Shown: positions 1,042 through 2,657 of the stretch, piece by piece
Layout: each line of letters starts with the position of its first letter
Position numbering within the stretch: position 1 is the first letter of the stretch
DNA from: an uncultured Pelagibacteraceae bacterium
GTDB taxonomy: Bacteria > Pseudomonadota > Alphaproteobacteria > Pelagibacterales > Pelagibacteraceae
NCBI GenBank assembly: GCA_902518155.1
Contig: CABYFA010000001.1
Location: 195,942-259,941, forward strand
Length of the DNA: 64,000 nucleotides
Reading direction: 5' to 3'
Translations under genes and position numbers: made by a program
Notes under the pieces: model-generated
What the model saw: only the letters and a program-made list of their open reading frames with translations
Told to the model about the DNA's origin: nothing
Databases searched by the model: none

Positions 1042-1323
1042 CTATTTTAAAAAATTATCTGCGTAGGATTTTTTTACTATTTTTCTTTTTTTTGGCTCAA
1101 TTAGTTCATAATCAATTTTTTTCTTCTTTGCATAATTTATTGCTAATTCTTTGGTTGAAAATTCTAATTTCAGCTCAGTATACGTATCATTAGAACTTTC
1201 CCATCCCATTAAAGGATTTTTTGTTGGATCATTAGTTTCAAATTCAAGTATCCATTTATCAAGTTTTCCTAAACCAGATTGCATTGCACTTTTATTAGGT
1301 ATGTAAATTTTTGCTTTTTTCAT
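1042..1323 (-). CDS. NADH-dehydrogenase (complex I) accessory subunit, NDUFS4/18-kDa family
   Basis: A 93-residue protein with the short ETC complex I subunit conserved region. Signs are the start KKAKIYIPNKSAMQSG, then WILEFE and NPLMGW, a core shared with NDUFS4-type accessory subunits of alphaproteobacterial and mitochondrial complex I. In the family this subunit sits on the matrix/cytosolic arm and helps assembly. A longer reading to 1359 would translate through a tRNA-Pro 3' fragment, so the ATG at 1323 is preferred. That ATG is only five bases after the CCA of the tRNA remnant, suggesting the gene once lay directly behind tRNA-Pro, before the islet now separating them arrived. Confidence 0.8.
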   Translation of the reverse strand: MKKAKIYIPNKSAMQSGLGKLDKWILEFETNDPTKNPLMGWESSNDTYTELKLEFSTKELAINYAKKKKIDYELIEPKKRKIVKKSYADNFLK

Positions 1324-1326
1324 ATC

Positions 1327-1352
1327 AATGGTCGGAGTGGCAGGATTCGAAC
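1327..1352 (-). repeat. tRNA-Pro 3'-end duplicate (distal att-like site)
   Basis: This 26-base stretch repeats the T-arm, acceptor 3' strand, CCA and two further bases of the tRNA-Pro gene at 2579-2604. The two copies have the same orientation and differ at one base (C at 1348, T at 2600). No other tRNA part is present here. A direct repeat of a tRNA 3' end is what a tyrosine-recombinase insertion leaves behind, so this is read as the displaced original 3' end. Confidence 0.85.
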
Positions 1353-1482
1353 TTCTCACCTAAAACTCCAATTTGTTAAGTGTTTATACTAGTTCTTCTT
1401 TAAATTGAATTGGAAAAATTGACAAATATACAAATAAATAACCATTGATTTTGTTGAGAGAGTTGCGATTGGCGACTCTTTA

Positions 1483-1501
1483 ACTCTCCATTTACTCTCC
1501 A
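1483..1501 (-). repeat. tandem octamer pair, distal side of islet
   Basis: Two copies of ACTCTCCA (TGGAGAGT on the minus strand) at 1483-1490 and 1494-1501, an 11-base period, about one helical turn. The same pair recurs at the other end of the islet. I read them as arm-type recombinase or excisionase binding sites. They could instead be operator sites for the islet genes. Confidence 0.6.
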
Positions 1502-1561
1502 CTTTTCTTGCCACCCCCTTATTAATATTTTTATAATCCTCCAATTAAAATTAAAATGAAA

Positions 1562-1831
1562 TTATTTATTATCTATATCCGCAACAAAATCCAGATAAGA
1601 TTGAGATTTATCAATACCGCATTTTTCCATATGTTCTGGAGATAATGGCGCGGCTGCTAAAACTGTTCCTATTGGAAATTCTTCTGCAGAAATCCAATCT
1701 TTAGTGTCAAAATCCCAAACAACAGACGCAGCTCCTTCATCTGTAGTTCTAGCAACAGCACAATACAAACCACCACTGTTTCGTGGAGATACAAGTAATT
1801 CAGTTGGTCTCTTAATTTTTGCTTCTATCAT
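1562..1831 (-). CDS. hypothetical islet protein, 89 aa
   Basis: I do not recognise this protein. It is soluble, with no membrane segment or signal peptide, and mildly acidic. It contains a YCAVARTTDEGAASVVWDF stretch and one further Cys near the C-terminus. A hand count of the gene gives about 37 % G+C, clearly above the surrounding genes, which suggests recent acquisition. It follows the 209-residue ORF by 21 bases on the same strand, so the two probably form one transcript. Both lie between the duplicated tRNA-Pro ends and are the islet's only cargo. Confidence 0.6.
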   Translation of the reverse strand: MIEAKIKRPTELLVSPRNSGGLYCAVARTTDEGAASVVWDFDTKDWISAEEFPIGTVLAAAPLSPEHMEKCGIDKSQSYLDFVADIDNK

Positions 1832-1852
1832 TTAAATCCTCTCAAAATCCTC

Positions 1853-2482
1853 TCATTTTTCTTTTACAAAATTTTTAATTGTGGTTCTGAAATAACTAAG
1901 ATTTTTATGGTGTTGATTGATGCTGGATTCAAAAAGAATTCTATATTTCTTCCTTTTACTATCTTCATAATCTAAAACAAAAGTCATATAATTCTTTATC
2001 TTACCTAAATTGATAAATTTCTTAATTTCTTTTTTTTCAAAGCTCCATGCGAAATAAAAATCATCTAATTCTTTATTTTTTAAATCTAATGCATTTGATG
2101 CAAAACTATCCCATTCGAAAAGAGGTTTTTTTTTATGAAAATTATCTAATTCGAAAAGAATCTTTTTTCTATTTATTAAAAATAAGTTTGCATTTAATAT
2201 TGGAAGATTCTTATCTTTTGGAAAATGTAGTTCCATTATTAATTTAGGTTTAGAAATATTTTTTTTTATAAGTTTTTTTAGAGAAGATCCGATGTCTAAA
2301 GTTATACAGCAAGTGATATCTCTCTTATCTCCTATTAAAAATAAACCTATAGCTCTAGGAGAGCTTTTAGACCCCCTTATTATAATGTTTTTATCAATCG
2401 TATCTAATACATCGAAATAATTATTATCCGAGTTATCAGAATCAGCACTTTTGAATCTGTACCCAACAAATTTTGACATCAC
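1853..2482 (-). CDS. hypothetical islet protein, 209 aa
   Basis: No family recognised. The protein is Lys-rich and soluble-looking, without a convincing membrane helix or signal peptide. The N-terminal quarter is polar (SADSDNSDNN) and the rest alternates beta-like hydrophobic runs with basic segments. Translation can begin at either of two adjacent ATG codons (2482 or 2479). Base composition is AT-rich like the host, unlike its 89-residue partner, so the two cargo genes may have different histories. It lies 33 bases from the proximal octamer pair, whose binding protein could therefore also affect its promoter. A role in phage defence or element maintenance is possible from context alone. Confidence 0.6.
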   Translation of the reverse strand: MMSKFVGYRFKSADSDNSDNNYFDVLDTIDKNIIIRGSKSSPRAIGLFLIGDKRDITCCITLDIGSSLKKLIKKNISKPKLIMELHFPKDKNLPILNANLFLINRKKILFELDNFHKKKPLFEWDSFASNALDLKNKELDDFYFAWSFEKKEIKKFINLGKIKNYMTFVLDYEDSKRKKYRILFESSINQHHKNLSYFRTTIKNFVKEK

Positions 2483-2515
2483 CCTACTCTATCATAAATG
2501 AAATTAACTTCATTC

Positions 2516-2535
2516 ACTCTCCACTTTACTCTCCA
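2516..2535 (-). repeat. tandem octamer pair, proximal side of islet
   Basis: Two copies of ACTCTCCA at 2516-2523 and 2528-2535 (12-base period), matching the pair at 1483-1501. Both pairs contain TTTACTCTCCA. The pair lies about 45 bases from the tRNA-Pro 3' end, between the end of the tRNA and the first islet gene, as an integrase arm site would. Confidence 0.6.
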
Positions 2536-2580
2536 TTTATGTATTAATGTTAAAAAAGGATTGATAAGACTTGCTTATAA

Positions 2581-2657
<77 letters not shown>

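Follow-up and report, generated by a model that had tools for sequence, protein, structure and literature searches.

How might a small chromosomal element that encodes no recombinase move between genomes? This question is raised by an islet of ~1.25 kb in a 64,000-nucleotide stretch of DNA (hereafter the window) from an uncultured Pelagibacteraceae bacterium (contig CABYFA010000001.1, positions 195,942 to 259,941). The islet is flanked by a 26-bp direct repeat, whose two copies are 96% identical and one of which is the 3' end of a tRNA-Pro(TGG) gene, and an octamer, ACTCTCCA, forms a tandem pair near each of its ends. SAR11 bacteria are among the most abundant on Earth and, to our knowledge, few mobile elements are known in them. 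Comparison of the window with other SAR11 genomes and with viral contigs makes it probable that the octamer pairs are arm-type integrase sites and that islets of this kind are integrase-less hitchhikers, mobilized in trans by phages that integrate at tRNA-Pro.

Octamer pairs and insertion at tRNA-Pro

A sequence-only reading of the window had described two tandem copies of ACTCTCCA at each end of the islet, and these are confirmed at 1483/1494 and 2516/2528, all on the + strand; they are the only copies in the window. The period is 11 in the left pair, which starts 131 positions inward from the distal repeat, and 12 in the right one, which ends 44 positions ahead of the proximal repeat. The sequence-only reading had overlooked a further pair inside the islet, at 1836/1847, formed by a different octamer, ATCCTCTC. 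By itself, the number of ACTCTCCA copies is weak evidence, being only mildly unusual (four copies are reached in 5 of 100 shuffles of the window, for a mean of 1.18). The same reading had warned that an octamer frequent throughout the genome would speak against its proposal, which is the case for single copies (30 in the 1.14-Mb genome, versus 13 for the reversed control) but not for pairs: with periods of 10-14, the whole genome holds none beyond the two of the islet. In addition, when the window was modelled as a first-order Markov chain, not one of 200 sequences generated at random contained one octamer in two separate tandem pairs (octamers with at least four G+C, pair period 10-12), and paired octamers averaged 0.24 per sequence. 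On the basis of the genome scan and the Markov test, a chance origin is rejected for the ACTCTCCA pairs; single octamers may have arisen by chance.

On its other side, the islet is bordered by the host gene NDUS4. When 41 genomes were searched for this neighbour, 29 loci were recovered, the host genus accounting for 18. Among these 18, tRNA-Pro abuts NDUS4 at 14, islets lie between the two genes at two (the window and genome G015), and the remaining two (L115 and L120) have other genes, without arms, in between. The core is present at both ends of the islet and in a single copy in the empty site, and the 14 sites at which tRNA-Pro abuts NDUS4 therefore identify the islet as an insertion at the tRNA 3' end. 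The other 11 NDUS4 loci, from another family, have tRNA-Arg nearby instead of tRNA-Pro. By eye, the genes at L115 and L120 are glycosyl- and methyltransferase-like.

Related islets in other SAR11 genomes

Together with the window, pattern, BLAST and profile searches identified seven complete islets at tRNA-Pro(TGG), of 1,187-2,616 bp, all without an integrase. The six others are L027 (in AH-321-B08), L039 (G015), L077 (G776), L078 (G441), L079 (G350) and L100 (G375); in addition, a left arm only is present in G567 (AG-365-G02, Pelagibacteraceae), where the contig ends. Convincing matches were obtained in 5 of 399 genomes in one search and in 5 of 397 in another, with overlapping samples. These counts, which exclude weaker matches (33 genomes and 6 genomes, E about 2e-5 to 1e-3), are lower bounds, since two candidates were scored per genome in one search and strict filters were used in the other.

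Both ends of all seven complete islets carry a tandem pair, with a left period of 11 and a right period of 12. The random variation of spacing between related islets, which the sequence-only reading had named as damaging to its proposal, is hence not what is found. A right period of 12 is also seen in a one-ended tandem islet (see below), and a left period of 12 in the one-ended G567. The octamer itself varies between islets, being ACTCTCCA, ATCCTCTC with its close forms, or ACTACCGA, and within each islet the left and right octamers agree. Over 12 elements (seven islets and five of the phages presented below), this co-variation has a permutation p of 1e-5; taken separately, it is reached in 8 of 5040 permutations for the islets and in 4 of 120 for the phages. 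The test treats elements as independent, with octamers taken by eye and two of the three right copies of L078 used; it leaves out the near-duplicates L069, L072, L073, L074 and L076, the one-ended G567, and L138, L146 and L147. The same repeated sequence is found in both arms, the feature by which arm-type sites were recognized here.

The cargo is mostly unrelated between islets. L079 encodes a PIF1-like helicase and a small membrane protein (Pfam), L027 the same two types of protein by similarity to L079, L078 a DUF2167 protein and a PrsW-family protease (Pfam), and L100 an HNH protein and a protein without an assigned family; the cargo proteins of the remaining islets have no assigned function. 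Of the 14 cargo proteins, all but the L027 helicase were scanned against Pfam, and no integrase was found among these 13, nor any primase among the scanned proteins, the PIF1-like helicase occurring in two islets. When eight of the 14 were compared with PHROGs, one matched helicases, its neighbour gave weak matches (E 0.003-0.007) and six gave nothing.

A universal octamer rule was also considered and rejected: a scan of genome contigs for the ACTCTCCA pair returned 14 loci, of which only two, L027 and L036, are from Pelagibacteraceae. The other 12 are scattered among taxa, and an estimated ~7 chance matches are expected in 257 Gb.

Phages with the same attachment-site design

In viral contigs, the scan for the ACTCTCCA pair returned eight stretches on seven contigs. 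One of them, L007, encodes a tyrosine integrase, with octamers downstream and a tRNA-Pro gene; a match inside an open reading frame (ORF) in L008, and L014, which is a second site on the L010 contig, were not counted as phage attachment sites (attP). Relatives of the L007 integrase are encoded on 17 distinct contigs, including L007 and L107, and a tRNA-Pro(TGG) gene lies at most 0.9 kb downstream of the integrase gene in 15 of them, while the other two end 273 and 456 nt past this gene. The attP is readable in 13 contigs, always in the order integrase, right pair, core, left arm, left pair, tRNA-Pro. Since some contigs are nearly identical (L072/L076 and L073/L074), their counts should not be taken as independent. 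In L151 and L152, whose integrases are 35% identical, tRNA-Pro lies 885 nt downstream. A search for octamer pairs beside an integrase and a tRNA gene, as the sequence-only reading had advised, has thus led to phage contigs whose pairs flank an attP core, with a tyrosine integrase and tRNA-Pro(TGG), i.e., to a homologous attP adjoining an integrase gene. Its suggestion that the pairs may be arm-type sites for an integrase encoded elsewhere gains support from this attP and from the alignment of left arms.

The left arms of seven islets and 10 phage contigs align without internal gaps, save for one extra base inside the G567 pair. Between the ATTYGAA motif of the core and the first left octamer, 7 of 8 islets and 12 of 13 phage contigs (11 scored by pattern, plus L071 placed by alignment) have 138 nt; the exceptions are islet L100 and phage L138, which have 137 nt and the same octamer. 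On the right, the end of the second octamer lies 61 nt from ATTYGAA at all eight islet right ends and 40 nt from it in 13 of 14 phage contigs, L068 being unscored because its second right octamer is unclear. The second octamer of L139 is degenerate.

Islet and phage octamers are identical for the ACTCTCCA and ACTACCGA classes. The second of these matches had been predicted: starting from the ACTACCGA islet L100, the viral scan returned six stretches, one of which is in phage L107, where a ACTACCGA pair lies beside the integrase, the core matches the SAR11 tRNA-Pro end exactly and a tRNA-Pro gene is present. The L107 integrase is 44-50% identical to the nine others aligned. Moreover, when the left arm, stripped of its pair, was used to assign each islet its nearest phage, islets and phages agreed at 57 of 64 octamer letters, versus 37.9 by permutation (p = 0.015; eight islets and nine of the 13 phages, L069, L072, L073 and L074 being left out, and L100 and L138 read one base off).

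Among 50,697 phage records, no known-phage relative of the L007 integrase was found at 1e-5. When E values up to 0.1 are admitted, the L107 integrase has matches in 23 phage records, Gram-positive or unassigned, with identities of 22.8-37.2% and a best E of 8e-4. The N-terminus of the integrase is predicted by AlphaFold to form three strands and a helix, with a predicted local distance difference test score (pLDDT) of 75-88 within a model that is weak as a whole (mean pLDDT 56.5); we take this to be the layout of arm-binding domains. A fold search with the same weak model gives Xer recombinases as best matches (E 1.2e-3), and the sequence has one integrase match in the PDB, 3nkh (E 1.8e-5).

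As for the phages themselves, the five longest contigs of the family measure 34-40 kb. In L071, the sole phage tested in this respect, genes other than the integrase are similar to those of pelagiphages: Pelagibacter phages make up 20 of the 21 records matched by the nuclease, with identities of 26-32% among the matches listed. The L071 lysozyme is most like that of HTVC200P (75%) and belongs to a family present in 1767 records; a Cro/CI-type regulator is encoded as well. No known-phage record covers 80% of the L071 attP, the matches listed corresponding to its tRNA-Pro part. In L067-L076, L138, L146 and L147, the phage tRNA-Pro(TGG) gene is located 164-190 nt from the core.

Octamer pairs were also noticed in other viral records. 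A high-GC record of 46 kb has ACTCTCCA pairs near both ends, one of them with a mismatch, and another record has one within the 3' end of its integrase gene, none being found at its other end (pairs in these two records: L009, 138-156; L082, near 2132; L011, 9248-9266). ACTACCGA pairs lie near tRNA-like 3' ends in L106 (13167) and L108 (1140), on contigs of 51 and 60% G+C.

Evidence for movement

A further right arm, carrying ATCCTCC octamers, is found in AH-321-B08 just outside the distal core, and a truncated ORF lies beyond it. Judged by this arrangement, AH-321-B08 carries two tandem islets of different classes, one of which, the second, is truncated where the contig ends, so that tandem accretion, as in cis-mobilizable elements (CIMEs, see below), would be represented in one genome. 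The left arms of the window islet and L027 are 95.5% identical over 154 bp, compared with 79.9% for the neighbouring gene nhaA. L027 and L079 have cargo in common (helicase 87% and 66% identical in two stretches, membrane protein 59%) and different octamers. The empty sites and the tandem islet support mobility, with signs of recent transfer limited to one islet pair: they are indicated only for the L027 arm, as the other arms are not clearly above nhaA.

Proposed mobilization in trans and its alternatives

Under the reading favoured here, each islet would retain a phage-type attachment site, i.e., right pair, core, left arm of ~130 nt and left pair, around unrelated cargo. The integrase would be supplied by phages, probably temperate pelagiphages, integrating at the 3' end of tRNA-Pro(TGG), whose attP is laid out in the same way, with an octamer identical or close to that of the islet, and the N-terminal domain of this integrase would bind the pairs. 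It would seem that phage integration breaks the host tRNA, the phage copy of tRNA-Pro replacing the lost one. Upon phage entry, the integrase, perhaps helped by an excision factor, would cut out the islet and reinsert it elsewhere; alternatively, the islet may move joined to the phage as a cointegrate after tandem insertion, as outlined for CIMEs (PMC7563491). We infer binding, excision in trans and transfer in virions from these comparisons, as well as a limit set on islet size by capsid room (islets of 1.2-2.6 kb, phage contigs of 34-40 kb). A more specific version can be put forward tentatively: the islets may be minimal phage satellites of SAR11 whose sole mobility determinant is an attP mimic, with octamer classes that track phage arm-site specificity and change by end swapping, a right-arm length of their own that exceeds the phage one by two helical turns, travel as phage-islet cointegrates and a size set by spare capsid room.

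Several observations weigh against mobilization by these phages. Of the 13 phage contigs with a readable attP, 12 have a degenerate core, unlike the islets, and islet right arms are 21 nt longer than those of the phages, although helical phase would be kept because 21 bp correspond to two helical turns. The integrase was not found in 300 host-genus genomes (45 of them at least 90% complete) in a search that had no positive control, which is why no helper prophage is seen in place. The ATCCTCTC prediction held only approximately, the octamers of L146 and L147 being similar and not identical, and the exact ATCCTCTC islet pair has no occurrence in viral contigs, where the helicase cargo has no match either. 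In the ranking of phages by whole left arm, L078 is tied between two octamers; when ranked on the 39 nt beside the pair, islets and phages have 48 of 64 letters in common (p = 0.06), and for four of eight islets (window, L027, L078, L079) the closest phage has a different octamer. Last, the right arms of the window islet and L027 are 81.9% identical over 72 bp, and the left arm of the window islet compares with nhaA as 86.6 versus 82.6% for L077, 79.3 versus 81.7% for L078, and 80.0 versus 80.8% for L079.

Some of these points would suit immobile relics, i.e., remains of decayed prophages or other elements that lost their integrase and are no longer mobilized. The left arm is not clearly above nhaA in three of four comparisons, the islets have no integrase, the cargo in the window has no known relatives except a stretch of a viral contig, and the internal pair hints at past rearrangement. 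Decay is nonetheless an unlikely explanation, as both ends are intact in all seven complete islets and the right arm exceeds that of every scored phage by 21 nt, so that the islets seem to form a separate lineage; in addition, six of the eight cargo proteins compared with PHROGs match nothing, and the tandem insertion and the L027 arm indicate movement.

The matched octamers could also serve a decoy, islet arm and core sites titrating the phage integrase or misdirecting integration as a defence. PIF1 helicase, HNH and PrsW-family cargo could be appropriate for such a role, the helicase matching the helicase part of several PADLOC models (best E 8.1e-18) and two other cargo proteins having weak PADLOC matches (E 5e-4 and 0.003). 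These matches cover only part of the models, however, six of the nine scanned cargo proteins have none, and islets are present in few genomes, which makes defence an improbable main function, albeit one compatible with mobility.

Mobilization by a host recombinase is hardly credible: in five of the seven islet genomes searched (G567 counted, G375 not), the contig that carries the islet does contain, ~6-13 kb away from it, one gene of the phage-integrase family PF00589 (open frames of 320-325 aa), but it is the sole PF00589 gene found in each, as expected for a housekeeping Xer, which it presumably is, none was found in the two other genomes (G015, 58% complete, and G585), and paired arm sites with a tRNA core are not known as Xer features, the arms matching phage attP instead.

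Comparison with known elements

In the attP of lambda and of other bivalent tyrosine integrases, the core is flanked by two arms in which arm-type sites are repeated at intervals of about one helical turn. The islet ends resemble this ordinary design, except that islets have no attached integrase gene and that their octamers vary by class; as a whole, the islets resemble CIMEs that would be tied to phages. Tycheposons, the tRNA-targeted cargo elements of streamlined marine bacteria, typically encode their own tyrosine recombinase; the islets are likewise tRNA-targeted cargo, without a recombinase of their own.

CIMEs are presented as decayed integrative and conjugative elements (ICEs) or integrative and mobilizable elements (IMEs) that keep their att sites and move by accretion, with a classical size of 1.2-13 kb (PMC7563491). 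The islets similarly keep attachment ends, lack recombination genes, have a small cargo, occur in tandem and overlap in size with the CIMEs of that account (PMC7563491). However, the relatives found here, by comparison of arms with phage contigs, are phages and not ICEs or IMEs, and the islets have several octamer classes. Neither would the islets be a plain deletion product of the scored phages, since the length of the right arm differs. Like the islets, phage satellites of the phage-inducible chromosomal minimalist island (PICMI) type are small and occupy fixed sites in the chromosomes of marine bacteria, and dependence on phages is presumed for the islets as well; the satellites described encode their own integrase (PMC10803314), whereas neither an integrase nor a primase was found in islet cargo. 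Clusters of attC sites lacking integron integrases (CALINs) and miniature inverted-repeat transposable elements (MITEs) are also reported as non-autonomous and mobilized in trans by a recombinase or transposase, but they use the integron integrase or transposases, while the islets have a phage attP design at a tRNA gene (PMC11389934). No description of such islets was found by title in the open-access literature.

If linked to phages, the islets would be a way for small SAR11 genomes to gain genes, and the CIME principle would extend from conjugative elements to phages, with the octamer as a readable code linking an islet to its helper phage. Searches that start from integrases miss islets of this kind.

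Cargo and other features of the window islet

The features of the islet and its surroundings are listed in Table 1. A Pfam scan of both its ORFs found no integrase. The product of the 89-aa ORF has no match in 199 other genomes or in phage records; at the DNA level, this ORF is 79% identical over 118 bp to viral contig L005. The similar stretch of L005 (3736-3987) is antisense within a 582-aa open frame, read here as a virion gene, and the differences by codon position (23/18/32) favour the minus-strand ORF. The 209-aa protein has no match in viral contigs. The window islet is probably composite, because the internal ATCCTCTC pair adjoins the 209-aa ORF; the 19-nt string formed by this pair is also present in islet L039.

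Table 1. Positions of the islet and neighbouring features in the window.
Feature	Position	Strand	Basis or remark
Host gene NDUS4, bordering the islet opposite tRNA-Pro	1042..1329	-	PF04800, E 6.6e-33
Distal attachment core, displaced tRNA-Pro 3' end	1327..1352	+	26-bp direct repeat, missing from 14 empty sites
Left arm, homologous to phage attP left arm	1353..1482	+	Alignment with islets and phage contigs
Left tandem pair ACTCTCCA, period 11	1483..1501	+	
Cargo ORF, 89 aa	1562..1831	-	No Pfam, PHROGs or PADLOC match
Internal tandem pair ATCCTCTC, period 11	1836..1854	+	Left-end octamer of other islets
Cargo ORF, 209 aa	1853..2482	-	No relative found; no Pfam, PHROGs or PADLOC match
Right tandem pair ACTCTCCA, period 12	2516..2535	+	
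Right arm spacer	2536..2580	+	Distance from second octamer end to ATTYGAA
Proximal attachment core inside tRNA-Pro 3' end	2579..2604	+	
tRNA-Pro(TGG), integration target	2581..2657	-	ARAGORN

Ahead of the first cargo gene, a similar leader, TAGAGTAGGGTRATG on the cargo strand, is found in the window (2477-2491) and in L039 (547-561), and a leader of this type is therefore common to two islets with different cargo.
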